From Magnetococcales bacterium (GTDB lineage Bacteria; Pseudomonadota; Magnetococcia; Magnetococcales; Magnetaquicoccaceae), in contig JADFYM010000011.1 in NCBI GenBank assembly GCA_015233035.1, forward strand, positions 1-34,141: a stretch of DNA of 34,141 nt. Reading direction: 5' to 3'. Of the stretch, positions 4,271-33,244 are shown piece after piece. The position numbers and the translations under genes were made by a program. The notes under the pieces were generated by a model. It saw nothing but the letters and a program-made list of their open reading frames with translations. It searched no databases and had not been told where the DNA came from. Position 1 is the first letter of the stretch. Each line of letters begins with the position of its first letter.

Positions 4271-4348
4271 AGGGGGTCCGGGGGGGATTATCCCCCCCGG
4301 TGGGGTCCAGGGGCAAAGCCCCTGGTGGGGTTGGGGGCGAAGCCCCAT
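4271..4348 (+). repeat. GC-rich triple-hairpin dispersed repeat, copy 2
   Basis: Three consecutive palindromes lie just after pntB: one around GGGGGGGATTATCCCCCCC, then CCAGGGGCAAAGCCCCTGG, then GGGGGCGAAGCCCC. They are joined by GGTGGGGTT-type linkers. Same orientation as the copy at 18397. The RNA could fold into three stable stems at the 3' end of the pnt transcript. Confidence 0.85.
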
Positions 4349-4579
4349 ATGCGCTAACATACCGCAATCGATTGATTTTGTTATGTTCATATTATGGCTC
4401 CTGCGGGGCGGTATTGGGTGGGCAGCACCAGCTTCCTGCGGAAATGGGCTTCTGGTGAATCGCACACTGCGGCAGGGGCTCTGCCCCTGCACCCCGCCAG
4501 GGGGGATGATCCCCCCTGGACCCCGCAATAATATTATAAAAACTGCGGACAGACGGCTATGTTAGCGCATATGGGGCGA
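4340..4579. repeat. Compound element bounded by 19-bp inverted repeats
   Basis: GCCCCATATGCGCTAACAT at 4342-4360 is the exact reverse complement of ATGTTAGCGCATATGGGGC at 4559-4577. The roughly 200 bp between contain a further hairpin repeat (4473-4525). No convincing gene lies in 4258-4611: the short open frames there mostly translate repeat sequence. It may be a miniature non-autonomous element or a pair of oppositely oriented repeat units. Confidence 0.6.
4473..4525 (-). repeat. GC-rich hairpin dispersed repeat, copy 3 (two hairpins)
   Basis: GCAGGGGCTCTGCCCCTGC followed by CCAGGGGGGATGATCCCCCC and TGGACCCC. It is the reverse orientation of copy 2 and lies downstream of modC when read on modC's strand. 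The third hairpin is represented only by GGGGCGAAGCCCC at 4574-4586. Confidence 0.8.
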
Positions 4580-5713: not shown

Positions 5714-5788
5714 AGAGGGGGCTTTGCCCCCAACCCCACCAGGGGCGTTGCCCCTGGACCCCACCAGGGGGATGATCCCCCTGGACCC
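5714..5788 (-). repeat. GC-rich triple-hairpin dispersed repeat, copy 4 (inside mod operon)
   Basis: Palindromes GGGGGCTTTGCCCCC, CCAGGGGCGTTGCCCCTGG and CCAGGGGGATGATCCCCCTGG fill the modB-modC gap. Read on the minus strand, the same strand as the mod genes, the unit has the same order as copies 2 and 6. One arm has a compensated-looking change (GCAACGCCC), which keeps the stem. Confidence 0.85.
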
Positions 5789-7618: not shown

Positions 7619-7891
7619 ATGACCAGCAGCTTGCATGTGAGTTTACCCGATGAAATGCGGGCTTATGTCGATCTTCGTACCAATGGCAAAAAAGCCTTTG
7701 CCACCCCCAGCGAATATGTTCGCGCTTTGATTCGCCTCGACATGGAAAGAGAAGCAGAACGGCTTTATATTTTTGGTGAACTCTTGAAATCTGCGGAAGA
7801 GATCAAGAACGGTCGCACTTATTCCGCTGAAGAAGTCGAAGCCCGCTCAAAGGCTTTTTTGGATGAGCTTGGCAAAGAAGATCAAAAATGA
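7619..7891 (+). CDS. ParD-type antitoxin (ribbon-helix-helix)
   Basis: A 90-residue antitoxin of a type II toxin-antitoxin pair. The N-terminal part, SLHVSLPDEMRAYVDLRT followed by TPSEYVRALIRLDME, fits the ParD/CopG ribbon-helix-helix DNA-binding fold: one short strand and two helices. The charged C-terminal helix (residues about 60-90) is the usual toxin-wrapping part. It has a strong ribosome-binding site, AAAGGAG, ending about 9 bases before the ATG. The stop overlaps the toxin start (ATGA), giving coupled synthesis. It would neutralise the downstream ParE-like protein and repress the pair's own promoter. Confidence 0.85.
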   Translation: MTSSLHVSLPDEMRAYVDLRTNGKKAFATPSEYVRALIRLDMEREAERLYIFGELLKSAEEIKNGRTYSAEEVEARSKAFLDELGKEDQK

Positions 7892-8277
7892 CACGCAAAA
7901 TGTACCGCATGACTGCGACCGCCGAAGGTCACTTTTGGAAGGCTTTGCGTGAGAGCAGACAAAAGTGGGGGCATAAGCGGGCGGAAAAATACCGAGTCGA
8001 TTTTTTGCAGGGATTGCAGCGCATCGCCGACAACCACCCAGTTTTTAACGCGCCGCACCGTGACGAGTTGGCCGCAGACACGGCCTTTTTAATTCACCTT
8101 GTAGAGCACCGCTACGTTGCTTTTCAGGAGCATGACAAAGAGACAATCATCATTGCTGGCATCTTTCACGAGAGCATGGACATTCCAACCAGACTACGGG
8201 AATTGCAAGGCTTGGTACGGCACGAGATCGACGCTCTCAAGCGCGAGATCGACCACGTATCACGCCATGCGACGTGA
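7888..8277 (+). CDS. ParE-like toxin (RelE/ParE superfamily)
   Basis: A 129-residue protein directly overlapping the antitoxin gene by 4 bp. Features of the ParE/RelE toxin fold are the N-terminal strand and helix pair (KMYRMTATAEGHFWKALRES, then RAEKYRVDFLQGLQRIADN), the FLIHLVEHRYVAFQEHDKE strands and the IIIAGIFHESMDIPTRL end, where ParE proteins usually have a conserved IL.V.H..RD-like segment. Known ParE toxins act on DNA gyrase and RelE toxins on ribosomal mRNA; which target applies here cannot be told. The C-terminus is about 25 residues longer than typical. Confidence 0.82.
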   Translation: MTRKMYRMTATAEGHFWKALRESRQKWGHKRAEKYRVDFLQGLQRIADNHPVFNAPHRDELAADTAFLIHLVEHRYVAFQEHDKETIIIAGIFHESMDIPTRLRELQGLVRHEIDALKREIDHVSRHAT

Positions 8278-8336: not shown

Positions 8337-11300
8337 CTACATGGCCCAGGCCCGCCAACCGGTGTGCATGGGAAAATACAACCCCAGCCGGATCGGATGG
8401 GCCGACACCCGCTGCATCAACATCCCATAGCGCGCCATCTGTTCCTGATACCGCAACCGCTCATTGTCCAGAAACGCCTCCAAATCACTCCCGTGATGCC
8501 AACTGCTCTTGAAGTCGATGACCCAGCGCACCCCCTCCCGATCAATAAAGGTGCGATCCAACACCAGCCGCTGCGGTCGACCCCGCACCACCCCCGTCAA
8601 GGCCAATTCGGAAAACGGCTCCTCATGCCGCGTATTGTCCAAAATCCATCGTCCCCGTTCATCGTTGACCGTGTTCAACAAGGCATTTTTGACCATCCCG
8701 ACAGCCCGCTGCAACTGCGCCAGCGGCACCCCCAGCCGCTCCAGATGGGCGGCATAGGCCAGACGGCGGGCCTCCAGCCGTTGCGGCGTCCATTGGAGCA
8801 ATCCCTCCTGGGCAATGGTGTGCAAAAAGCGATGCACAACAATGCCCACCAGACGCACCGTCTCCCCCGCCCATTCAAATTCCACCGGTTCTTCGTCCAC
8901 CGCCCGCAGGGCAGCCTGCTCCCGCAACGCGGGCGGGGGCGGCGGAGGCGACCAGTCGGTCACCAGACGCCGCAAGGGAACCCCCACCGTCTTGGCCACA
9001 AACTCCCCGGCAGATTCATCCGGCGGTGGCCGATCCTCGGCAAACCAGGTCGCCACCTGCGGCCACAACAGATGCAGAAAAGATCCCGTCGCCGGGGGAT
9101 CCCCGGCAGCCCGAACATGACCCAGCAGATGCAACCGCTCCCGGGCGCGGGTGGTCGCCACATAGAGCAACCGCCCGGCCTCAAAGGCCCCCTTGCTCTT
9201 TTCTGTGTGGCGAATAAAGGCGTGAATCGGATCATCCTGCTCCTGGTCCACCCGCTTGAGCGGTCCCAGCACCAGGCCAGCCGGATGCTCCATCCAGGCC
9301 AGGAGCGATTTTTCCTCGCTGCGGGGCGAACGTCCCAGACCGGGCAAAATGACCGTGTCAAACTCCAACCCCTTGGCCTTGTGAATGGTCATTACCTGCA
9401 AACCTGCCTCCGCCTCCGGGTCCACCCCTGCATAGAGCGCGGCCACCTTTTGGCTGAAGCCCGGCAAATCGGGCAACTCGCCGCCCCGTTCGGTCGTTGC
9501 CAGCAAGGCAAAAAATTGCCGGGCCGCCGCCAACCCTTGCGCATCGGGAACCGTGGCCGGTCCACCCAGAGCCTGCCAGGTGTGCTCGATCCAGAAACAG
9601 AGCCCACTGACACCCGGAAAGGCCTGACAGCGACGCCGCTGCTGCAAGGCCTCGGTCAATACAGCCACCAGCCGTGCCAGTCGCCATTGGCCATCCTCGC
9701 TCAAGCCCGGCCAGGCTGCGGGTGCCGCAATCCGCTCCCACAGGGTGGGGGGCGCGCTGGCCTCCCCGGCGGTCACCGGCGATTTTTGGGCCAGATGGGT
9801 CAAATCGGCCAACGACAACCCACACCAGGGGGCGCGCAAAATAGCCAGCCAGGCAATGCGATCCGCCGGACAGGTCAGGGCGCGGGTCAAGGAGAGCAGA
9901 TCCTGAATCACCATCGATTGGGCCAGCGATGCCAGATCAATCCCCTGGTAACGCAGACCGGCTTGGCTCAACGCGGGCAGAATATGCTGCAAGTGCGACC
10001 GGGCCCGGACCAGAATGGCCGTCTTGTGGTTGGCCTGGCGGGCTTGCCGGACCAGAGCGACCACCTGGGCGGCCTCCGCTGGCGGGTCATCGGTGGCAAA
10101 TGGATGGACCGTGACGGCCACCCCGGCCTGGGTAGTGCGAAAAGGGACCGAGGCATGAAAATGGACCGCACCCGCCGCCATGTCGTCCACCGGGGGCATG
10201 ATCGAGGGAAAGGAGGCATTGACCCAGGCAACCAGATCGGCCTGGGAACGAAAATTGGCCGTCAGGGTCAAGGGCCGCAGGCGAATCTGCCCCAGCCCCA
10301 TCTGCTGGGCGCGCAAAAACAGCCCCACCTCCGCCTCGCGAAAACGATAGATGGATTGCATGGGATCGCCCACCACAAACAGCGTGCGCCCATCCTGACC
10401 GCTCCAACCGGCGGTCAACCGCTCCAGCAGCCGATATTGTCCCTGCGAGGTATCCTGAAACTCATCCACCAATAGATGCTTGATTTGATAATCCACCTTC
10501 ATGGCCAGATTGGTCGGGGTTTCCGGTTCGCCCAGGGCCGTTTCAGCCCGCATGGCAATCTCGGCAAAATCCACCTGGCCCAACTCCTGAAACCGGATGC
10601 TCAGTTGGGCCACCGCCATGGGCAACAGGTGCAGCAGGGCTTGCAATATTTCCCACTGGGCCTCGGTATAGTGGGGCGGCGGCAGCAGGCGCACCCTGGC
10701 CAGTGCCTCCCGCAGGCCCGGTCGCTCGGCAAGCAATTGACCGAGGGCGATGGTACACCCCTTCATCTCCGTAAACAGAGCCTTTTCCGTCGCCGACCGC
10801 CCCTGACTGGCGGGTGGAAAGCCGTTGCTGACATTGACCTGCTTGCGCCAAGTGTCGCCCTTGGTCAGCAGACACTCCACGATGCCCAGCCATTGGGCAT
10901 AATGGTCCGGCGTGGCCGCCGGAAAGGGGGCCTGACTGTGGCAAAGGGTCACCGGGGAGGCGGACTGGGCCAAACGGAGATTTTCTCCGGCAAAGCCCGC
11001 CAGATGCCAGATTTCCTCTTTTTCCAGTTCCGAGAGCGATTGTTCGACGGCCAGCAGTCCGTCACAGACCACCTGGTGCAGGACTGTTTCCAGCAGGCGT
11101 CTGGCCTCTGCGCCCTGGGCCTGCTGGCCACCGATATGGCGCAACCATTGCTCGCGGCGCGCCAACAGGTTGGCCAACAGGGCTTCCACCTTGGCCAGAT
11201 GGTTGTCCAGATGGTCGAGCAGGGTGGCAATGGCGGGGGACCAGCGGTTTTTTTCCTTGCCCAGCAGCAAAGTGGCCCGCGCGGCGGCCTGATAGTGCTC

Positions 11301-11747
11301 CGCCGGATCCTCGACAATGCCGAAATGACCGCCCAGACGGGACAAGATGGGCAGTTGCCGGGTCAGATTGGCACACAGGGCATCCAGGGTTAAAATGCGC
11401 AGGCGGCCCGGATTGTCCAGCAATTGCCACCCGAGTTCCTGGTCGCGGCGCAATGCCAGTTCGCCCAGGTGCCGGGTATGCCGGGCAAAGGAGTCGGCCT
11501 CGGCGGGTAGCTCGCGCTGGGCGGCGTGCAACGCCTCCACAATACGATTTTTCATCTCGGCCGCCGCCTTGCGGGTGAAGGTGATGGCCACCAGTTCTTC
11601 GGGTTGCTGAACCAGGGTCAACAGGCGCAAAAAACGTTGTGTCAGAAGACCCGTCTTGCCGGAACCGGCGGGGGCCTGGACAATAAAAGAGGCTGTGGGG
11701 TTGAGCGCGTCGGCGCGGGCCAGGGCGTCGGCCAGGGGGCGGGTCAT
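8337..11747 (-). CDS. addA: AddA-like double-strand-break repair helicase/nuclease (UvrD/RecB family)
   Basis: A superfamily 1 helicase with a C-terminal nuclease, 1136 residues, as in AddA. Motif I is APAGSGKTGLLTQ (about residues 25-37), followed by AITFTRKAAAEM (Ia), LLVDEFQDTSQGQ (II), VVGDPMQSIYRFREAE (III), LTANFRSQ (IV), VMTIHKAKGLEFDTVILPG (V) and LYVATTRARERL (VI). The C-terminal VRWVIDFKSSW is the PD-(D/E)xK nuclease core. It would unwind and resect broken DNA ends to feed RecA. The start at 11747 overlaps the stop of the upstream AddB-like gene (ATGA), and that partner supports an AddAB-type complex. The frame extends further upstream only within the neighbouring gene. Confidence 0.93.
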   Translation of the reverse strand: MTRPLADALARADALNPTASFIVQAPAGSGKTGLLTQRFLRLLTLVQQPEELVAITFTRKAAAEMKNRIVEALHAAQRELPAEADSFARHTRHLGELALRRDQELGWQLLDNPGRLRILTLDALCANLTRQLPILSRLGGHFGIVEDPAEHYQAAARATLLLGKEKNRWSPAIATLLDHLDNHLAKVEALLANLLARREQWLRHIGGQQAQGAEARRLLETVLHQVVCDGLLAVEQSLSELEKEEIWHLAGFAGENLRLAQSASPVTLCHSQAPFPAATPDHYAQWLGIVECLLTKGDTWRKQVNVSNGFPPASQGRSATEKALFTEMKGCTIALGQLLAERPGLREALARVRLLPPPHYTEAQWEILQALLHLLPMAVAQLSIRFQELGQVDFAEIAMRAETALGEPETPTNLAMKVDYQIKHLLVDEFQDTSQGQYRLLERLTAGWSGQDGRTLFVVGDPMQSIYRFREAEVGLFLRAQQMGLGQIRLRPLTLTANFRSQADLVAWVNASFPSIMPPVDDMAAGAVHFHASVPFRTTQAGVAVTVHPFATDDPPAEAAQVVALVRQARQANHKTAILVRARSHLQHILPALSQAGLRYQGIDLASLAQSMVIQDLLSLTRALTCPADRIAWLAILRAPWCGLSLADLTHLAQKSPVTAGEASAPPTLWERIAAPAAWPGLSEDGQWRLARLVAVLTEALQQRRRCQAFPGVSGLCFWIEHTWQALGGPATVPDAQGLAAARQFFALLATTERGGELPDLPGFSQKVAALYAGVDPEAEAGLQVMTIHKAKGLEFDTVILPGLGRSPRSEEKSLLAWMEHPAGLVLGPLKRVDQEQDDPIHAFIRHTEKSKGAFEAGRLLYVATTRARERLHLLGHVRAAGDPPATGSFLHLLWPQVATWFAEDRPPPDESAGEFVAKTVGVPLRRLVTDWSPPPPPPALREQAALRAVDEEPVEFEWAGETVRLVGIVVHRFLHTIAQEGLLQWTPQRLEARRLAYAAHLERLGVPLAQLQRAVGMVKNALLNTVNDERGRWILDNTRHEEPFSELALTGVVRGRPQRLVLDRTFIDREGVRWVIDFKSSWHHGSDLEAFLDNERLRYQEQMARYGMLMQRVSAHPIRLGLYFPMHTGWRAWAM

Positions 11748-14647
11748 GCCAGTTGCTCCTCTTCGGTCGGAATGGGACCCTGTTCCGGGTAGCGGCACAG
11801 GGGAGTCAGGTCGCAATAAAGGCAACTCTGGGGCAAGGGATCCACCCGCGCCTCGCCCCGGATGAATTGTTCCCCCAGGTTGGTGAGAACCGCCCGCCAG
11901 GAGCCGATCATCTCCTGCCAATCGGCCATCTCCGGTGCCTGTTTTTGAAAATGTTCCACGCGGGGCAACAAGCCTTCCTGATCGGCCAGGCCGTTGAAGC
12001 GGCACTCGCCTGCCCGTACCTGACAAAAAGCCAGAGCGGCCACCCGCTCGTCAACCGATTGGGCCCAGGCCAGGAGATACAGGGGCAACTGCGGATCCGC
12101 CGGTCGGTCGCCAAACCAGTCGGCGGTGCGGGTTTGTCCCGTCTTGTAATCCAGAACCACCAGGGAACCATCGGGCAGCCGGTCGATCCGATCCAGACGG
12201 ACCCGCACAGTCAAGGCCCCCAGGGTCAAGGTACGCTCCATCTCCTGTCCGACCACGGTGAAGGCCACGTCGCGCCCCTGTTCCAACTGCAAAAAGGTGT
12301 GGAGCAGGCGGGTCAGACGGGCATCCTCCAGTTGGCGGAAAAAGGGGTGCAGCGGTTCCGGCCATTGCCGGGTGGCCTTTTCCAGGGTCTCCTGGACGGC
12401 CATCTGGACCAGGGGATTGTCGGTCGTGGCCACGGTCTTGATGTCGGTCTGCTCGGCACCGAGATGCTGCCAGAGTTGAGTCAAGGCACCATGGACAATC
12501 TGGCCACGCTGGGAGGCATCCAGGCCGATGTCTGGTTCCGGTCGTGCGGTCGCTCCCAGGCGGAAGCGGGCAAAGGCCTGAAACGGGCAGACCGCCTGGG
12601 CTTTCAACACCGCCGTGCTGACCGGTGGGGCATCCTGGGTGGGATACGGGGGGCCACAGTCGTCGAGCAGGGTGGCGCATTCCGCTGCCTCAAACAGCAT
12701 TTGGTGATAGTCCGGGAGGGGTTCCATAGGGGGTTCGCTGGCACGCTGTTCGGGCAGGTGGGCAATCATGGGGGTCGGGCGCAAGGGCTGGTCGTCATTC
12801 CAGAGGGGATAACTGCAAACAATCTCCTCGGCGGATTGCAAAAAAGTCTGGAAGAGGGCCTGATGGTAGGCCGCCTCCTGGGCAAACGCGGCGTGGGGCA
12901 TCCCATGGTGGCGTTGCAGGGCGATGGGCAAAAAGGGATTGGGGGCCAACGGGGGGGGCCAGGCATCCTCCGCGAGTCCCGTGATCCAGAGGTGGGTACA
13001 GGTTTCGCCCACGGCCTCCAGCATACCCATGATCTGGATCGGCGCGTCGTCTGCCTCGGGTTGAAAGGGGCGTTCCGCCAGCAGACGTTCCAGCAGGGCC
13101 AGGGCATCGGTCAGAGAGAGGCGTCCGGCCATTTTGTCCAGGGTGGCAAACAGGGCGAGTCCCTCCCGCCAGGCGACCACATTCTGATATTCGCCGCTGG
13201 TCAGACCGCGCTCGCCCGGCCAACCCAGCACGGTCAGCCAGCGGGAAAACCGCTCTATCCACACCGAGGGACGGGCCGGGGCGAGGGGCGAAGTGGCGGT
13301 GGGCGAAGCGGAATCTGGCCCGATTTCTGCGTGTTCGATTGTTGCCCGGTTGTCTTTTTGATCGGAATCGGCTAGAAAGGTTGCGAAGGTGGCCAGCGTG
13401 GCGGCCAGTATTGGGCATGGTGGTGCCTCGGTATCGCCACGGGCCGCCTCCCGCCGCAACTGGCTGGTCTGGATCTGCAAAAAACCTTTGTGCCGCAACC
13501 GGCTATCCAGCAAACTGCGGGCCGACCATTCGGTTTGGCCACCCTGCCAGAAGGGCGAATGAAGCAGACGGGTATACTGGATCAGGGCGAGGTTGCCTTT
13601 GCCCAAGCCCAGCAACAGCAGGGCGTCCCGCACCAGTGGGGTTTCGGTCAGGCGGGCTCCGAGGGAAATGTTGAACAGTTTGCTGCGCGGATCCAGGGTG
13701 GTCGGGTTTGTGCCGGGATAAAAGGTGCGGGAAAAAATCGCGACCACTTGCGGCAACAGATTTTCCAGGGTCGGGATGATGATGCCGATTTTTTGCTCCG
13801 GGGTCTGGGTGAGTATCGCCCTGGACCAGTGGGCGGCGGCCACCAGTTCGGCCTCGGTGGAGGGGTGGCCCACGCGCACGGCGCGGCCCGCCGGGCGGGA
13901 TAGCGTCCATTCCTCGATCTGAATACCCGCCTGGGTCAAGGTGGCCCAGAGTGCGCCCAGGTTGGGGGGGATGGGTGGCTGGAATCCGGCCAGCAGGATC
14001 TGTTTGGGCAAGATGGCGGGTCCAGGGGGATCATCCCCCTGGTGGGATCCAGGGGCAAAGCCCCTGGTGGGGGTCCGGGGCGAAGCCCCGCAAGAGGGGT
14101 CCACCGGTCCGCCTGTTTCTGCCGCAGGGTCATGGTGTGCCAAGTGAGGGAGCAGGTAGGCAATCAGGCTGGCCCGATCCAGCCAGCCCCGTTGACGACA
14201 AAGGGTTGCAAATCGGGTAGACCAGGCGTAAAAAGCCTGAGCGTCTTCGTGATCATAGAGATCGGCTTCGGTCGGGGTGACCTGCCACTCCTGGAGCAGG
14301 TTCCAGGCTTTCTGGGCATTTTTGGCGGCCTCGTCCACCCGCAGCAGTCGTTCGCCCTCGGGGGAGGCGGTGATGATGCTTTCCCAAAGCAACCGCTCCT
14401 GCCAGGGAGTGAGCAGGGTTGGGGCATGGTTGCGGGCGCGGCCGGGATCGGTCTCCCGTTGGTCCAGGAGGTGTTCCCAGCACTGTTCCAGCCAGGTGGC
14501 GAGGGGCATGATGCGCGGGGTGGGCCAGACGGTTGCCCCGGCTGCGAGTTGTTCCTGATCCATTTGCTGGATCAGGGTGCGCGCCAGACGGCGGTTGACC
14601 GTCAGGATGAGACGGTCCGAATCCGGGGTGGGCAGGGTGTTTTGCAT
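11744..14647 (-). CDS. AddB-like PD-(D/E)xK nuclease / probable DNA repair protein
   Basis: A 967-residue partner of the downstream AddA-like helicase, of the family once named only probable DNA repair protein (TIGR03623) in Beta- and Gammaproteobacteria. The N-terminal part (LILTVNRRLARTLIQQ) and middle resemble an inactivated helicase fold with no intact Walker A seen. The C-terminal nuclease has VRVRLDRIDRLPDG and LVVLDYKTGQ. A Cys before the nuclease (AVCPFQAFARFRLGA) and three after it (SCLYCDLTPLC) match the arrangement of the AddB 4Fe-4S cluster. Residues about 182-211 are encoded by an in-frame dispersed hairpin repeat (14017-14103) lying just before ILLAGFQPPIP. It diverges from fabG, 64 bp away. 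Confidence 0.88.
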   Translation of the reverse strand: MQNTLPTPDSDRLILTVNRRLARTLIQQMDQEQLAAGATVWPTPRIMPLATWLEQCWEHLLDQRETDPGRARNHAPTLLTPWQERLLWESIITASPEGERLLRVDEAAKNAQKAWNLLQEWQVTPTEADLYDHEDAQAFYAWSTRFATLCRQRGWLDRASLIAYLLPHLAHHDPAAETGGPVDPSCGASPRTPTRGFAPGSHQGDDPPGPAILPKQILLAGFQPPIPPNLGALWATLTQAGIQIEEWTLSRPAGRAVRVGHPSTEAELVAAAHWSRAILTQTPEQKIGIIIPTLENLLPQVVAIFSRTFYPGTNPTTLDPRSKLFNISLGARLTETPLVRDALLLLGLGKGNLALIQYTRLLHSPFWQGGQTEWSARSLLDSRLRHKGFLQIQTSQLRREAARGDTEAPPCPILAATLATFATFLADSDQKDNRATIEHAEIGPDSASPTATSPLAPARPSVWIERFSRWLTVLGWPGERGLTSGEYQNVVAWREGLALFATLDKMAGRLSLTDALALLERLLAERPFQPEADDAPIQIMGMLEAVGETCTHLWITGLAEDAWPPPLAPNPFLPIALQRHHGMPHAAFAQEAAYHQALFQTFLQSAEEIVCSYPLWNDDQPLRPTPMIAHLPEQRASEPPMEPLPDYHQMLFEAAECATLLDDCGPPYPTQDAPPVSTAVLKAQAVCPFQAFARFRLGATARPEPDIGLDASQRGQIVHGALTQLWQHLGAEQTDIKTVATTDNPLVQMAVQETLEKATRQWPEPLHPFFRQLEDARLTRLLHTFLQLEQGRDVAFTVVGQEMERTLTLGALTVRVRLDRIDRLPDGSLVVLDYKTGQTRTADWFGDRPADPQLPLYLLAWAQSVDERVAALAFCQVRAGECRFNGLADQEGLLPRVEHFQKQAPEMADWQEMIGSWRAVLTNLGEQFIRGEARVDPLPQSCLYCDLTPLCRYPEQGPIPTEEEQLA
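14017..14103 (+). repeat. GC-rich triple-hairpin dispersed repeat, copy 5, inside a coding region
   Basis: CGGGTCCAGGGGGATCATCC begins the same three-palindrome unit as at 18397, here within the AddB-like gene and antisense to it. About 87 bp, a multiple of three, so the frame stays open and adds roughly 29 residues rich in Gly, Pro and Ser (GASPRTPTRGFAPGSHQGDD). Confidence 0.9.
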
Positions 14648-18336: not shown

Positions 18337-18396
18337 CGGCGCATGTCATCTCCTGATTCGGGGCGTCTTGTGGTGCTTGCTTTTTCAATCGTTTTG

Positions 18397-18470
18397 CGGG
18401 TCCAGGGGGATCATCCCCCTGGTGGGGTCCAGGGGCAAAGCCCCTGGTGGGGTGGGGGGCAAAGCCCCCG
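18397..18470 (+). repeat. GC-rich triple-hairpin dispersed repeat, copy 6 (mltG-tmk gap)
   Basis: CCAGGGGGATCATCCCCCTGG region, then CCAGGGGCAAAGCCCCTGG, then GGGGGGCAAAGCCCCC. It is almost identical to copy 5 inside the AddB-like gene and ends about 12 bp before the tmk start. It leaves tmk without a recognisable ribosome-binding site. Confidence 0.88.
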
Positions 18471-18482
18471 TCGGTTGCAACC

Positions 18483-20127: not shown

Positions 20128-21486
20128 ATGAGTGATGCCGTCATACCGGAACGGAATGAACCACCGTCAGAGCAGACAGGCGCGGAGGGGGGTATTCCTG
20201 CGGGCGACACCCCGAATGCGTTGCGCAAATCGGTGGCTGCCGTCAAGGTCCATCCTGCCAAGGAGGCCAGCGGGGCCAAAAAGGTGAACAAGCTGGTCGG
20301 GGTCCGGGTTCCTTCTGCCGGGATGGTATACCGTTTTGTCTCCACGCTGCGAGAGATCCAGGTGGGGGATGCGGTCCTCCTGCAAGACCAGGAAGAGGAA
20401 ACGGTGGGCTGGGTGGTGTTTGTGGTGGAGGGACAGGCGGGCGAATTGTTTCAGGATCGTCTCTTTCCGGGCGGATTTGAAAAAATCATCCGGGTACTGT
20501 CCGAGAACGAACGCGATTTTTTGCACGCCCGCGAGGGCTTGGAACACCAGGCCAGAAAGGTGTGTCGGGAAAAAATTCGCGAATTGCAACTGCCCATGCG
20601 CTTGTCCAAGGTCCATTATCTGCCGGGTGGCGGCAAGGTGGTGGTCTATTTTACCGCCGAAAGTCGAGTGGATTTTCGTGAGTTGGTCCGCCTGTTGGGT
20701 AGCCAGCTCAAGGTGCGGGTGGAGATGCGCCATATTGGCGTGCGGGATGAGACCAAGCTGCTGGGTGGCATCGGTTTGTGCGGCCATGAATTTTGTTGCC
20801 GCTCCTATTTGGAAAGATTTCACCCGGTGTCGGTACGCATGGCAAAAAATCAGGAATTGTCCCTCAACCCGGAGGGGATTTCCGGTACGTGTGGTCGGTT
20901 GTTGTGTTGTCTGGAGTATGAGAATGCCACCTATCAGGCCCTGCGGGAGGGGCTGCCCAGGCTCAAACAGTCGGTGCAGGCCCTGGACGGACGCGAAGGG
21001 GTGGTACAGGCGGTCCATCCCCTGATGGGCACGGTGGATGTGCAGTTGGGCGATGGCAGTCGTGCCTGTTTTGGCCAGTGCGATCTGTGTGGGGGGGGTG
21101 AGAAGGGGGGGGTGGTCCCGGAAGAGGGGTTGCCGGAGGAGGGGGCAGCGGGAACGGAAGAAGCGGCGCGTGGGGCCGTGAGTGCGGCCAAAAAACGACC
21201 AGCCGAGCCGTCTGCGCCGACCAGGGGGGCGGCGACCACAGGCCGCCGGGCTCCACCCAGACGGGAGGCCCCGGAACAGCGGACCCGTCCGGGCGCGGGG
21301 GGGGTGCCGGTGGTGGTTGATGCGGGTGTCACGCCGGTACCCAAGGGGGGGACACCACTCCTGGAGGTTCCTGCGGTGGGGGCCCCCGTTCCGGGTATTG
21401 CCGATGGTCAGGCTCCGGCGAAGAAAAGACGCCGTCGGCGTCGGTCAGCGACCGGGGCCGCTACTGAGAAAAAGGAGACCCCATGA
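20128..21486 (+). CDS. PSP1/RicT (YaaT)-family protein
   Basis: About 452 residues. The central PSP1 domain begins near VGVRVPSAGMVYRF and contains two Cys-rich motifs, LCGHEFCCRSYLERFHPVS and GTCGRLLCCLEYE, as in RicT/YaaT of Bacillus, where they take part in Fe-S binding in a complex with RicA and RicF. Family KMAKNQ-like and LSLNPEGISG segments are intact. The first 50 residues and the last 120 (basic, Ala/Pro/Gly-rich, ending KKRRRRRRSA) are low complexity and probably disordered. As in Bacillus it directly follows holB, here in the place where many Gammaproteobacteria have pilZ. ATG 20116 is an alternative start. Its role in Gram-negatives is not settled. Confidence 0.85.
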   Translation: MSDAVIPERNEPPSEQTGAEGGIPAGDTPNALRKSVAAVKVHPAKEASGAKKVNKLVGVRVPSAGMVYRFVSTLREIQVGDAVLLQDQEEETVGWVVFVVEGQAGELFQDRLFPGGFEKIIRVLSENERDFLHAREGLEHQARKVCREKIRELQLPMRLSKVHYLPGGGKVVVYFTAESRVDFRELVRLLGSQLKVRVEMRHIGVRDETKLLGGIGLCGHEFCCRSYLERFHPVSVRMAKNQELSLNPEGISGTCGRLLCCLEYENATYQALREGLPRLKQSVQALDGREGVVQAVHPLMGTVDVQLGDGSRACFGQCDLCGGGEKGGVVPEEGLPEEGAAGTEEAARGAVSAAKKRPAEPSAPTRGAATTGRRAPPRREAPEQRTRPGAGGVPVVVDAGVTPVPKGGTPLLEVPAVGAPVPGIADGQAPAKKRRRRRRSATGAATEKKETP

Positions 21487-22934
21487 ATACCACGCCGACG
21501 CACACGCCGCTGGTCGAACCGTCCGCCATGATCCTGGCAGACAGCCATGCGCATCTGGATTTTCCCGATTTTATCCAGGATCAGGAGGCGGTCATGCAAC
21601 GCGCCCGGGCGGCGGGGGTGACCCGGATCAACACGATTGCCACCCGACTGACCGGGGTACCTGCCCTGATTAAAATAATGGACCGCTTTCCGGGGGTTTC
21701 GGCCAGCGTGGGCATTCATCCTCATTATGCGGGGGAGGCGGTGGATACGTCCGTTGCGGCCATTGTGGCGGCGGTCAGTCAGGATGACCGGATGGTGGCG
21801 GTGGGAGAGACCGGGTTGGATTTTCACTATCATCACAGTGCCGCGAGTCAGCAGGAAGTTGTGTTTCGGAACCATATTCAGGCGGCCAAGGTATTGGATT
21901 TGCCGTTGATTATTCATACCCGCGAGGCGGAGGCGGCCACGCGGCGCATTGTGGAGGAGGAGGGGGTGCCGCCACGGGGTGGGGTGGTCCACTGTTTTAC
22001 CGGTTCCGCCGGGATGGCGGAGTGGGCGGTTGCGCAGGGATTGCACATCTCCTTTTCCGGGGTGCTGACCTTTAAAAATGGGGAAAATTTACGACAAGTG
22101 GCGCGGCAGGTGCCGTTGGACCGTCTCTTGATCGAGACCGATGCCCCCTATCTGGCCCCGATGCCGCACCGGGGTCAACGCAACGAACCGGCTTATGTGG
22201 TGCGGGTGGCGGAGACCCTGGCGCAGCAGCACGGGTTGTCGTTGGCGCAGATGGCGACCATTACCACGGACAACTATGTGCGTCTGTTTCGTCCGCTGGA
22301 CCGGGGGGCGGGATCGCCGTCGGTGGCGGTCTCCCGTCCGCCCATTCTGGCTTATGCCATTGGCACCGGGTTGTATCTCAATATCAGCAAAGGGTGTACT
22401 CTGCGTTGTCATTTTTGTCCCAAATGGGTGGCCCCCATTGTCCACGAGTATGATCTCACCCTGGCCCGCAACCCCTCGGCGGAGGCGGTCTTGGCGGCCA
22501 TGGGCGATTTTTCCCATTATCAAGAGGTGGTCTTTTGTGGCTATGGTGAGCCGACCTTGCGCCTGCCGACTTTGCTGGCGGTGGCGCGGGAGATCAAAAA
22601 GCGGTGTGACATCCCCATTCGCATCAACACCGACGGGTTGGCCAACCGGGTCTATCGAACGGATGTGACGCCGCAATTCCGGGGGTTGATCGATGCCGTT
22701 TCGGTTTCGTTGAATGCCCAGAATGAAGCGGTTTACAACCGCAACAGCCGACCGACCCTGTCGGGGGCCTATGCGGCGGTGTTGGACTTTTTGCGCATGG
22801 TGCAGGCGCATGTCCCCAGTGTGACGGCAACCGCCATCGAGGGGTTGGAAGGGGTGGATATGGCCGCCTGTGCGCAGATTGCCGAACAGTTGGGGGTGCG
22901 GTTTCGGCGGCGGTTTTTGAATCGGATGGGGTGA
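21483..22934 (+). CDS. TatD-family metal hydrolase fused to radical SAM domain
   Basis: A 483-residue fusion. Residues about 17-280 are TatD: metal ligands in DSHAHLDF, VGETGLDFHYHH, LIIHTREA, VHCFTGS and ETDAPYLAPMPHRG. Residues about 300-480 are a radical SAM domain with GCTLRCHFCPKW (Cys-x3-Cys-x2-Cys), FCGYGEPTLR and INTDGLANR, like the TatD-linked radical SAM family usually encoded next to tatD. TatD proteins are Mg-dependent DNases or D-aminoacyl-tRNA deacylase-like enzymes; the radical SAM substrate is unknown. The start overlaps the previous stop (ATGA) and has AAGGAG upstream. It is the last gene of the holB operon. The joining linker reads GAGSPSVAVSRPPILAYAIG, so no frame break is seen. 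Confidence 0.9.
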   Translation: MNTTPTHTPLVEPSAMILADSHAHLDFPDFIQDQEAVMQRARAAGVTRINTIATRLTGVPALIKIMDRFPGVSASVGIHPHYAGEAVDTSVAAIVAAVSQDDRMVAVGETGLDFHYHHSAASQQEVVFRNHIQAAKVLDLPLIIHTREAEAATRRIVEEEGVPPRGGVVHCFTGSAGMAEWAVAQGLHISFSGVLTFKNGENLRQVARQVPLDRLLIETDAPYLAPMPHRGQRNEPAYVVRVAETLAQQHGLSLAQMATITTDNYVRLFRPLDRGAGSPSVAVSRPPILAYAIGTGLYLNISKGCTLRCHFCPKWVAPIVHEYDLTLARNPSAEAVLAAMGDFSHYQEVVFCGYGEPTLRLPTLLAVAREIKKRCDIPIRINTDGLANRVYRTDVTPQFRGLIDAVSVSLNAQNEAVYNRNSRPTLSGAYAAVLDFLRMVQAHVPSVTATAIEGLEGVDMAACAQIAEQLGVRFRRRFLNRMG

Positions 22935-24354: not shown

Positions 24355-24559
24355 TACCAAATTGCAATCGAACGGGGAACAAGGCGACAGGCACGGGCAC
24401 CCGTTATCGTCATTCCCGCGCAGGCGGGAATCCAGGAGTTCTGCGGGGCTGGCTGGATTCCCGCCTGCGCGGGAATGACGGAATAAGGAAGCGTCACTCA
24501 CAACCACGTGCAGTAACGACGCAGCCAACGCCGTTACCCGTCTGATTGCAATTTGGTAT
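24354..24559. repeat. 206-bp miniature inverted-repeat element
   Basis: ATACCAAATTGCAATC at 24354-24369 is perfectly inverted at 24544-24559 (GATTGCAATTTGGTAT). The termini fit a TA target duplication flanking CCAAATTGCAATC, as for IS630/Tc1-type miniature elements. It contains no gene, but holds the GTCATTCCCGC repeat pair. Its left TA follows directly after the TGA stop of the flavoprotein gene, and removing the element and one TA would leave that stop intact. Confidence 0.65.
24408..24480. repeat. GTCATTCCCGC-type dispersed inverted repeat, copy 2
   Basis: Two 28-bp arms (24408-24435 and 24453-24480) are inverted copies around a 17-base loop; each arm contains the ATTCCCGC/GCGGGAAT palindrome. 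It is related to 412-484, including the flank GGAATAAGGAAGCGTCACTC. Confidence 0.88.
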
Positions 24560-31336: not shown

Positions 31337-31645
31337 ATGGAAAAAAAGCGCAGAAGATATTCCCCTCAGGAAAAGACGGCCATCCTGCGGGAACACCTGA
31401 TCAACAAGGTACCGGTCTCAGACATTTGTGACCGACATGGGCTGCATCCTACACTTTTCTACCAGTGGCAGAAAGTGGCATTTGAGGGTATGCCAGTGCT
31501 TTTTGAGTCGAGACAAGACGCTGAAACCTCCAGGCTTCGGAGGCAGAATGAGATGTTACAAGAAAAATTGGCCAACAAAGACGCCGTGATCGCCCAAATT
31601 ACCGAGGAGTACGTTGCCGCAAAAAAAAGTCTTGGGGAAATCTGA
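31337..31645 (+). CDS. IS3-family transposase OrfA
   Basis: A 102-residue helix-turn-helix protein of an IS3-type element. It begins with KKRRRYSPQEKTAILREHLI, followed by the recognition helix (VSDICDRHGLHPTLFYQWQK) and a C-terminal leucine-rich coiled segment (SRLRRQNEMLQEKLANKDAV) used for dimerisation. It is followed in the -1 frame by OrfB. OrfA itself looks intact, but its element is broken, so mobility in place is unlikely. Confidence 0.88.
   Translation: MEKKRRRYSPQEKTAILREHLINKVPVSDICDRHGLHPTLFYQWQKVAFEGMPVLFESRQDAETSRLRRQNEMLQEKLANKDAVIAQITEEYVAAKKSLGEI
31621..31629 (+). promoter_or_regulatory. Programmed -1 frameshift site of the IS3 element
   Basis: Eight A residues then G, at the end of orfA. 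Slipping back one base joins orfA to an open frame that runs KKSWGNLRHSWISPKIRDD and on into the OrfB body. Such A-rich slippery runs are the norm in IS3 elements. Confidence 0.65.
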
Positions 31646-32151
31646 GGCACTCTTGGATTTCCCCAAAAATCCGAGATGATGTGATCGCCTTTATCCGGGG
31701 TTACGCTGACCTGTCTGGACTGCCCGTTGTACGTCTTGTTGGTTGGATTGGCATCAGTCGAGGCAGGTTCTACGATTGGTGTGACCGTTACGGACAGGCC
31801 AATGACCACAACGGCACCGTTCCCAGAGATTTTTGGTTGGAAGATTGGGAAAAGCGAGCAATAATAGCATTCTATCTCGAACATCAGAAAGACGGCTATC
31901 GGAGATTGACGTTCATGATGCTGGACCGTGACATTGTTGCTGTCAGTCCGGCCTCAACGTACCGTGTTTTGAAAGAGGCGGGACTCATGCGCAAGTGGAA
32001 TGGAAAGGAGTCCAAGAAGGGGACCGGCTTTGTTCAGCCGATTGGCCCCCACGAGCACTGGCATGTAGACGTAAGCTATCTAAATATTTCCGGCACGTTC
32101 TACTATTTTTGCGGGCTTCTTGATGGCTACAGTCGGTATATTGTGCAACTA
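31630..32151 (+). pseudogene. IS3-family transposase OrfB, truncated by an IS1595-type element
   Basis: The integrase-type OrfB, readable after the frameshift or from a GTG at 31681. It shows the HTH-like region (GWIGISRGRFYDWCDRYG), YRRLTFMML and the HWHVDVSYLNISG segment with the first catalytic Asp, up to LLDGYSRYIV. There the IS1595-type left end begins, and the second Asp and the Glu of the DDE triad are missing. The lost part does not resume on the far side of the insertion, so a deletion accompanied or followed it. The open frame ends at 32169 within the inserted element. Confidence 0.85.
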
Positions 32152-33226
32152 GGTATCCACTTCGGTTAAGCCCTATCCACTTCGATCAAGCGTCTTTGTC
32201 TTGTGAATCTTCCCTCTTGGGTTCGCAACAAGTGATCGATACGGTGCTGGTTTCGTGACTACAGCTTGCTGGATCAGCCTGTGAAACAACAAGCCCCGGG
32301 CTTTGGATGTCCGACGATTGAAGCGGAAGGTGAACTCATCCAGGTAATACTCAAGCTGATCATTTTGGACACCCCCCTGCAGGGTTCCAATCAGCCACCG
32401 TTTCAGATGCGTCGCCACCAAATGCACGTGAGGCAGTACCTCATGGGCTTTTTTTTCACTCTTCGTTATGTTGACGATTTGATGATCAAAACCAAGTTCT
32501 TTCAAGCCGGAATACCCACTCCACCCATCAGTATGTGTGGTTGCTCCAGGTTCTACGACTTCCGTTACGAACGGAAGGAGGCTGGCGGAACTGGCATTTT
32601 CGACTCGGCGGAGACGTACCCGTCCAAGCTTTTTACCGTCCAACTCGACGGCAATGACGACAAGTACTTTCTTCTCTGCTCCTCTGCCAAAATGTCCCTC
32701 TTCAGGACCGCCGACATAGGTTTCGTCTATCTCGACGGGTCCATGAAGACAATCTCGTCCAGGACGGATCATCGCACGGCGCATCTTGTGGAGCCATGCC
32801 CATGCGGTCTGATAGCTCCCAAGGCCCAGCACACGTTTGATGTTCATGGCACTGGCTCCATTTTTTTGGCTGGTAATCAGCCACATTGCGTGAAACCAGG
32901 AACGGAGGGGCTTTCTTGTGCCTTCGAAGATCGTTCCAGCCGTTATGGATGTCTGGCCATTGCAGGCACGGCAGTAAAACAGGTCACGGGACGTATCAAG
33001 TGGAATATCAGTACTTTGGCATTTTGGACAGACAAAACCATCTGGCCAACGCAACCGCAAAATATACTCCTGGCACGCATCCTCGTTTGGAAAGCGGTCG
33101 TCAAATTCCTGCATGGTCCGTGGGTAGTCAACCCCTGGGATTGGGTGTCTGGTGGTCTCCATGCAGGGATGGTACAAGCATCACTGACTTGAGTCAAGTG
33201 GATAGCACTTAAACGAAGTGGATACC
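32152..33226 (-). mobile_element. IS1595-family insertion sequence (ISXO2-like)
   Basis: About 1075 bp. Both ends read GGTATCCACTTCG and about 39 bp of each end match imperfectly in inverted orientation, including an internal second TATCCACTT. It contains one transposase gene on the minus strand. The flanks (GCAACTA left, TAGTTTTT right) show no 8-bp direct repeat, although this family normally makes one. Left of it is IS3 OrfB, right of it an unrelated AT-rich gene. Confidence 0.85.
32173..33162 (-). CDS. IS1595-family transposase
   Basis: About 329 residues (334 from a TTG at 33177). The N-terminal zinc-binding part has FVCPKCQSTD and FYCRACNGQ. The catalytic domain shows EIDETYVGGPEEGH (first Asp), HTDGWSGYSGL (second Asp) and the C-terminal region NDQLEYYLDEFTFRFNRR. 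It is characteristic of ISXO2-like transposases. The gene runs from one inverted repeat almost to the other and looks complete, so the element may still be active. Confidence 0.92.
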   Translation of the reverse strand: METTRHPIPGVDYPRTMQEFDDRFPNEDACQEYILRLRWPDGFVCPKCQSTDIPLDTSRDLFYCRACNGQTSITAGTIFEGTRKPLRSWFHAMWLITSQKNGASAMNIKRVLGLGSYQTAWAWLHKMRRAMIRPGRDCLHGPVEIDETYVGGPEEGHFGRGAEKKVLVVIAVELDGKKLGRVRLRRVENASSASLLPFVTEVVEPGATTHTDGWSGYSGLKELGFDHQIVNITKSEKKAHEVLPHVHLVATHLKRWLIGTLQGGVQNDQLEYYLDEFTFRFNRRTSKARGLLFHRLIQQAVVTKPAPYRSLVANPRGKIHKTKTLDRSG

Positions 33227-33244
33227 TAGTTTTTCGAATATGAC

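Follow-up and report, generated by a model that had tools for sequence, protein, structure and literature searches.

Palindromic repeats that lie inside proteins are best known from Rickettsia. Palindromic elements were reportedly described there by Ogata and co-workers in 2000 and 2002, in frame and translated inside unrelated housekeeping proteins and apparently compatible with their folds. These Rickettsia palindromic elements (RPEs) are approximately 150 bp long and nearly half of them are located in genes, according to the accessible part of PMC10969869. For REPs tagged with GTAG or CGTC, the sections available of Di Nocera et al. 2013 (PMC3733652) state that most copies are intergenic and a few lie in frame in genes, that in-gene copies often code for 20–30 residues and often occur in repair genes, including recBCD, and that repair genes are often the sole REP-tagged genes of a species. 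Loops and linkers are proposed in these sections as harmless sites, with a mutator effect as the alternative. The name Magnetococcus has no occurrence in that paper. REPs linked to RAYTs have a GT[AG]G guide 0–2 nt from the hairpin foot, as given in an excerpt of PMC6006769.

Here we describe a dispersed hairpin repeat in an AddB-like gene of a Magnetococcales bacterium (assembly GCA_015233035.1, contig JADFYM010000011.1). The window, i.e. the whole stretch of DNA analysed, comprised positions 1 to 34,141 of this contig (34,141 nt). It provides a new and clean example of a phenomenon that is known but has received little study, a hairpin repeat lying in frame inside a gene. The observation came from a first-pass annotation made from the sequence letters. 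It was partly confirmed, and its interpretation was partly supported, with the checks proposed there mostly turning out in its favour. No published account of this Magnetococcales repeat was found, which is weak evidence of absence since most subscription journals were outside the coverage of the search.

Host gene and encoded protein

The draft genome (4.53 Mb, 434 contigs) is probably a MAG, as are its named relatives. Those closest by the AddB-like protein were the Magnetococcales MAGs Umea_bin-01869, HCHbin5 and nWRX1bin1. The AddB-like protein scored 806.2 bits with TIGR03623 (cut-off 299.6), which places it in this family, and 65 with the alphaproteobacterial addB equivalog model, far under the cut-off of 486.5. 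Its PDDEXK_1 nuclease domain was intact (residues 676–952). The top Foldseek match of the protein model was AddB (4ceh_B; E 3e-27, TM 0.60 by query), followed by RecC. The protein thus shares the AddB fold and the PDDEXK_1 domain with AddB of AddAB (PDB 4ceh chain B), but unlike it falls in the TIGR03623 subfamily of 'probable DNA repair protein'. For three protein segments that flank the insert on either side, NG86 dN/dS values against the homologues L103, L104 and L105 were 0.23–0.37, indicating that the gene has been under constraint. As these values reflect the history before insertion, they are no proof that the present protein functions.

Table 1. Positions of the host gene, the inserted repeat and related copies in the window.
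Feature	Position	Strand	Basis or remark
AddB-like repair protein gene (host)	11744..14647	-	TIGR03623; 967 residues, open frame
AddA-like UvrD-type helicase ORF, adjoining the AddB-like gene	8337..12026	-	start codon mechanical
Repeat-derived part, 87 bp, oriented by the GATCATC hairpin, antisense to the gene	14017..14103	+	sequence matches in window and genome
Hairpin 1 (stem 9 bp, loop 3 nt)	14022..14042	+	ssDNA folding
Hairpin 2 (stem 8 bp, loop 3 nt)	14049..14067	+	ssDNA folding
Hairpin 3 (stem 6 bp, loop 3 nt)	14076..14090	+	ssDNA folding
Non-repeated part of the insertion, ~30 bp	14104..14134	+	genome search: short chance matches only
Entire insertion with respect to homologues (117 bp; 39 codons; residues 172-210, read on minus strand)	14018..14134	+	protein alignment
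Copy between MltG-like and thymidylate-kinase-like ORFs (gene names by reading)	18405..18468	+	
Copy upstream of an ABC-transporter ATPase gene; mechanical ORF runs through the copy	5717..5780	-	
Copy with three hairpins	4280..4346	+	
Two-hairpin relative of the repeat	4475..4514	-	
Copy near the contig start	159..223	-	

Extent and predicted structure of the insertion

The repeat was located inside the AddB-like gene and antisense to it, as first annotated, and all 967 codons of the gene were open. The claim that its approximately 87 bp keep the frame was borne out, 87 being a multiple of three. As single-stranded DNA, the copy folded into exactly three hairpins (z −3.8 for one strand and −5.0 for the other). 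Searched against the genome, an 87-bp query gave 46 scored matches, with identities of 94–97% over 74–87 bp for the best ones. The nearly perfect likeness to 18397-18470 claimed at first held only for hairpins 1 and 2 (98% over 57 nt). The third hairpin belonged to another subtype and the second linker had one extra G, and copies closer to the one in the gene were present elsewhere in the genome. The adjoining non-repeated segment (14104-14134) had matches of only 14–22 bp elsewhere in the genome, which were taken as chance.

In the protein, the interval from Trp155 to Leu219 (of the LAGF motif) spanned 64 residues, compared with 21–35 in all 78 usable GTDB homologues (80 fetched; L160, with a stop, and L177, with an X, were left out). 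It was 27 residues long in 55 of these and 25 in 13, the longest being 35 (L137). The excess over the 25-residue interval was 39 residues (172–210), with borders placed by the protein alignment to the nearest codon. In a second set, aligned with MAFFT, the segment was absent from all 26 readable homologues, among them 5/5 congeneric ones (29 sequences; L022 and L029 end short of the site and L027 was masked). The two sets overlap in genomes. The clean gap of approximately 29 residues at 182–211 that had been predicted was therefore found as a clean gap of 39 residues at 172–210; the estimate of 29 added residues matches the repeat-derived part. An equal-length segment without repeat, which would have spoken against insertion, was found in none of the homologues, as the longest interval was 35 residues versus 64. 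With an open frame on the gene strand and a length divisible by three, the insertion lengthened the protein by 39 residues.

An AlphaFold2 model of the AddB-like protein (67 sequences) had a mean pLDDT of 88.5 and a pTM of 0.86. The pLDDT fell below 50 only at residues 180–209, the sole long stretch, and 446–450. The insert was placed between helices ending at 170–178 and the strand 216–220. Its 39 residues are rich in Gly, Pro and Asp and, judging from the model, probably form a floppy, disordered loop, in agreement with the loop anticipated in the first-pass annotation. By reading, the LAGF strand occupies the place where the neighbouring AddA ORF has LLVDEFQD, which we take to be helicase motif II, so the loop would sit on AddB's degenerate motor domain.

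The repeat family and its distribution

Oriented copies of the repeat share a 5' GGGTCC. Next come the first hairpin, whose core reads GATCATC or GATTATC, the linker TGGTGGGGTCC, the second hairpin, built around CAAAG, and the third hairpin, which is more variable. The core was 69–76 bp long in 158 of 218 oriented copies. A further 25 had two hairpins (45–48 bp) and 21 read as one hairpin (21–24 bp). The 5' flanks of the copies were AT-rich (44.9% GC, compared with 58.1% for the loci). At least five of the six reading frames were stop-free in 138 of 190 arrays. The window held five further repeat places, namely four three-hairpin copies and one two-hairpin relative (Table 1).

The spaced palindrome CAGGGGSNNNSCCCCTG occurred 584 times in the genome. 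This is far beyond chance: with one more spacer base the count was 5, and with the reversed pattern it was 0. Two-hairpin elements with up to two mismatches numbered 275, and the linker CCCCTGGTGGGGTCCAGGGG had 528 matches on both strands with up to one mismatch. Matches to this linker numbered 6, 45, 0, 0, 60 and 2 in six congeners and up to 135 in the sister genus, and 18 of 61 genomes were positive. In a phylum sample of 398 genomes, 18 were positive, every one in the same order. The repeat is thus restricted to Magnetococcales in the samples examined. The first-pass proposal that it is mobile gains indirect support from the high copy number and the patchy spread among close relatives.

A horizontal source was rejected, as the copy at 18390-18475 had no match in plasmid and phage collections at E 1e-5. 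A known RNA family was likewise rejected, the Rfam matches in the window being two tRNAs only. Nor was a classical MITE supported: no duplication was seen by eye at the AddB site, and no general terminal inverted repeat was found, the flanks of 148 elements pairing no better with each other (duplex energy −11.2 kcal/mol) than in shuffled pairings with the flanks of other elements (−10.9 to −11.4 kcal/mol). Separately, the element at position 2445 of locus L213 represents a subfamily in which GTTCTGCG precedes the array. In some of its copies the 5' and 3' flanks paired strongly (−37.9 kcal/mol), as if these copies were embedded in a longer palindrome.

Repeat copies within genes

A census covered 222 arrays in 98 loci of the genome (907,857 bases, roughly one fifth of the total), picked for holding the repeat. 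Arrays with 200 bp on both sides were considered testable (188; 167 + 21), and an array was counted as in-gene if a stop-free ORF ran through it and codon use to its left and right was coding-like. By this measure, 3 of the 188 lay in frame in genes: the AddB copy of the window, which was the starting finding and is therefore ascertained, L197:4667-4729 and L211:1700-1763. In the relatives, no in-gene array was found among 12 testable ones of 16 (23 loci). With an estimated coding fraction of ~0.77 for the census loci, arrays inserted at random would mostly fall in genes. Genes are either avoided at insertion or cleared of inserted arrays afterwards.

The gene at L197 encodes a hybrid histidine kinase with the repeat at about residue 1037, between the receiver (905–1017) and Hpt (1114–1169) domains. 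As the length of this linker varies among homologues, no clean empty site is demonstrable there. The gene at L211 encodes a glutamate-synthase-like large subunit, whose one close orthologue (genome G037; 52% identity, 1104 columns) is without exactly 39 residues around the repeat; more distant paralogues align poorly at this place. An empty-site comparison is thus available for two of the three in-gene copies (AddB and L211), the L211 case resting on a single orthologue. Both insertions comprise 39 residues in the same strand and frame of the repeat. Since the borders of the element differ by reading (no 5' flank in AddB, ~18 nt in L211), the equal length may be a coincidence. The three sites correspond to a loop (AddB), an inter-domain linker (histidine kinase) and an unconserved segment (glutamate-synthase-like protein). 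They are consistent with the earlier suggestion that the repeat is tolerated only at protein surfaces, with a sample of three.

Three other candidates were not counted. L057:5620-5653 passed the coding test and is without the GATNATC hairpin and the standard linker. L060:7863-7926 was marginal (0.23/0.11) and had no Pfam or NCBIfam match. L052:9573, seemingly a frame-shifted in-gene case, lies between two genes. A count by ORF masking (28 of 222 arrays in predicted coding sequence) was discarded as unreliable because the ORFs had merely been trimmed to the first M or V and the window copy had been missed, we think owing to the overlap with AddA. As an observation apart, the glutamate-synthase-like gene of L211:1-4452 (G000 contig C132) is a second, divergent one beside the usual large subunit (G000 contig C110). 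Among the matches listed for 249 genomes, the sole close orthologue of its product was that of G037 (74% over 220 residues).

Relation to REPs and RPEs

In a broad sense the repeat is REP-like, consisting of high-copy short palindromes that are mostly intergenic and patchily distributed among close relatives. As far as the available sections of PMC3733652 describe them, the GTAG/CGTC REPs are likewise short palindromes, mostly intergenic, with a few copies in frame in genes. Unlike them, the present repeat is a tandem of usually three hairpins in the same orientation, and only 1/3 in-gene cases concerns a repair gene. A GTAG or CGTC tag was not found by eye at the hairpin feet, which are preceded by GGGT or GGGGT, and the missing tag led us to reject membership of these REP superfamilies. 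REPs and BIMEs with RAYTs, as portrayed in the excerpt of PMC6006769, also comprise hundreds of short hairpins per genome that are intergenic and patchy between species; here, in contrast, no RAYT-like gene was found beside the array in the loci tested. A RAYT-borne REP was rejected, as a GT[AG]G guide was not found within 0–2 nt of the foot in a consensus read by eye and the array was absent from the flanks (up to ~1.5 kb) of all 12 Y1_Tnp loci fetched (of 41 matches listed).

The likeness to RPEs noted in the first-pass annotation holds as an analogy. Both are in-frame insertions in otherwise conserved proteins, the present one presumably translated given its open frame. In contrast to RPEs, as characterized in the accessible part of PMC10969869, in-gene copies make up only 3/188 testable arrays here, and the present sequence is a GC-rich array of three hairpins. 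In this sense the element works like intragenic REPs and RPEs. More doubtful is a wider reading, in which Magnetococcales would have translatable palindromic elements of their own, unrelated to RPEs and to GTAG/CGTC REPs, that enter proteins as a cassette of ~39 residues. We regard this as possible and rather unlikely; if true, selfish hairpin DNA would be supplying working proteins with new loops in yet another lineage.

Origin of the insertion

The explanation we consider highly probable is that a dispersed hairpin array that multiplied in the genome was inserted in frame in the AddB-like gene and is tolerated as a loop. A directional array of three short GC-rich hairpins (units of ~25 bp) would have multiplied to hundreds of palindromes, and one array with ~30 bp of unique DNA would have entered the gene as 117 bp. 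The site would correspond to a tight turn in homologues, between a helix and the strand with the LAGF motif, and the disordered loop would leave the fold and the nuclease domain intact. The open frame, the length in multiples of three and the position in a turn would account for the tolerance of the insert, which we infer to be neutral. The array would be a non-autonomous, REP-like hairpin element, presumably mobile by means of a mobilising enzyme and tolerated within genes only at sites where an insert in frame does no harm. Several points weigh against this explanation: no target duplication was seen by eye at the 117-bp spacing, ~30 bp of the insert are not repeat, the array was absent from the flanks of the 12 Y1_Tnp loci fetched, no general terminal inverted repeat was found, and the genome is a draft.

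As to the mode of movement, the array might be a non-autonomous passenger of an IS200/IS605-type (HUH, Y1) transposase, inserted without target duplication. This is compatible with the main explanation, and we judge it improbable, if somewhat less so than the readings discussed below. Four Y1_Tnp genes of identical score and length are present in the genome, and the one that was classified is an IS200-family TnpA (139.9 bits, cut-off 55). Such enzymes act on single-stranded DNA hairpins, as the excerpt of PMC6006769 states, and the element consists of hairpins. A target duplication at the 117-bp spacing of the AddB site was not seen when the sequence was read by eye. However, the array was near none of the 12 Y1_Tnp loci, GTAG or GTGG was absent by reading within 0–2 nt of the hairpin feet, and the copy number does not track Y1_Tnp, since genome G005 had 60 linker matches and no Y1_Tnp match.

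That the insertion was selected, with the loop or the in-gene hairpins altering AddAB activity, e.g. towards a mutator or recombination-prone state, appears quite unlikely. The host is AddB-like, and many intragenic REPs occur in repair genes including recBCD (Di Nocera et al. 2013, PMC3733652, in the sections available). Against this, just 1/3 in-gene copies of the sample is in a repair gene, the insert is predicted to be disordered and far in sequence from the nuclease domain, and the case is a single one from a single genome. The two non-repair cases argue against a strict repair-gene bias here.

The repeat disturbs the assembly, as shown by the 16 of 54 contig ends (27 whole contigs) that lay less than 400 bp from an array, compared with ~4.8 expected by density. 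An assembly chimera through the repeat, which the first-pass annotation had listed as a reason for doubt, is nevertheless very improbable: the sequences flanking the insert both align in register with one and the same gene of G005 (contig C411), at 72% and 70% identity, and the frame is open, whereas a chimera would join unrelated sequence. Equally hard to credit is an ancestral loop lost in all relatives that came to resemble the repeat by later conversion, for although the interval varies somewhat (21–35 residues, with 35 in L137) and the ~30 bp that are not repeat might be older local sequence, it exceeds 35 residues in 0/78 homologues.

In-frame insertion of the multiplied array extends the published puzzle of REPs in recombination-repair genes by one AddB case. 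As a recent case in a distant lineage, it raises the question of whether hairpin elements generally seed protein loops, and of what moves them. In the annotation of these repeat-rich genomes, inserts that split domain matches and inflate ORFs should be expected.

Additional features of the window

Two copies (82% identity) of a paired palindrome starting with CGTCATTCCCGCG were located at 409-487 and 24405-24483. By eye they resemble the CGTC-tagged REP dimers described in the available sections of PMC3733652. At the contig start, an inverted repeat (1-104 versus 533-636, 103/104 bases matching) is a genuine inverted duplication or else arose in assembly. Two overlapping small ORFs at 7619-8277, the second with a weak ParE-toxin match under the cut-off, possibly form a toxin-antitoxin pair. 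A single ORF at 21483-22934 fuses a TatD DNase domain (20–270) and a radical SAM domain (300–460). At 31337-33231, what is left of an IS3-like pair (HTH_Tnp_1; HTH_21 and rve under the cut-off) precedes an IS1595-family transposase. Inverted repeats of 44 bp (86%) flank this transposase, and the IS1595 element may have landed within the IS3-like one.
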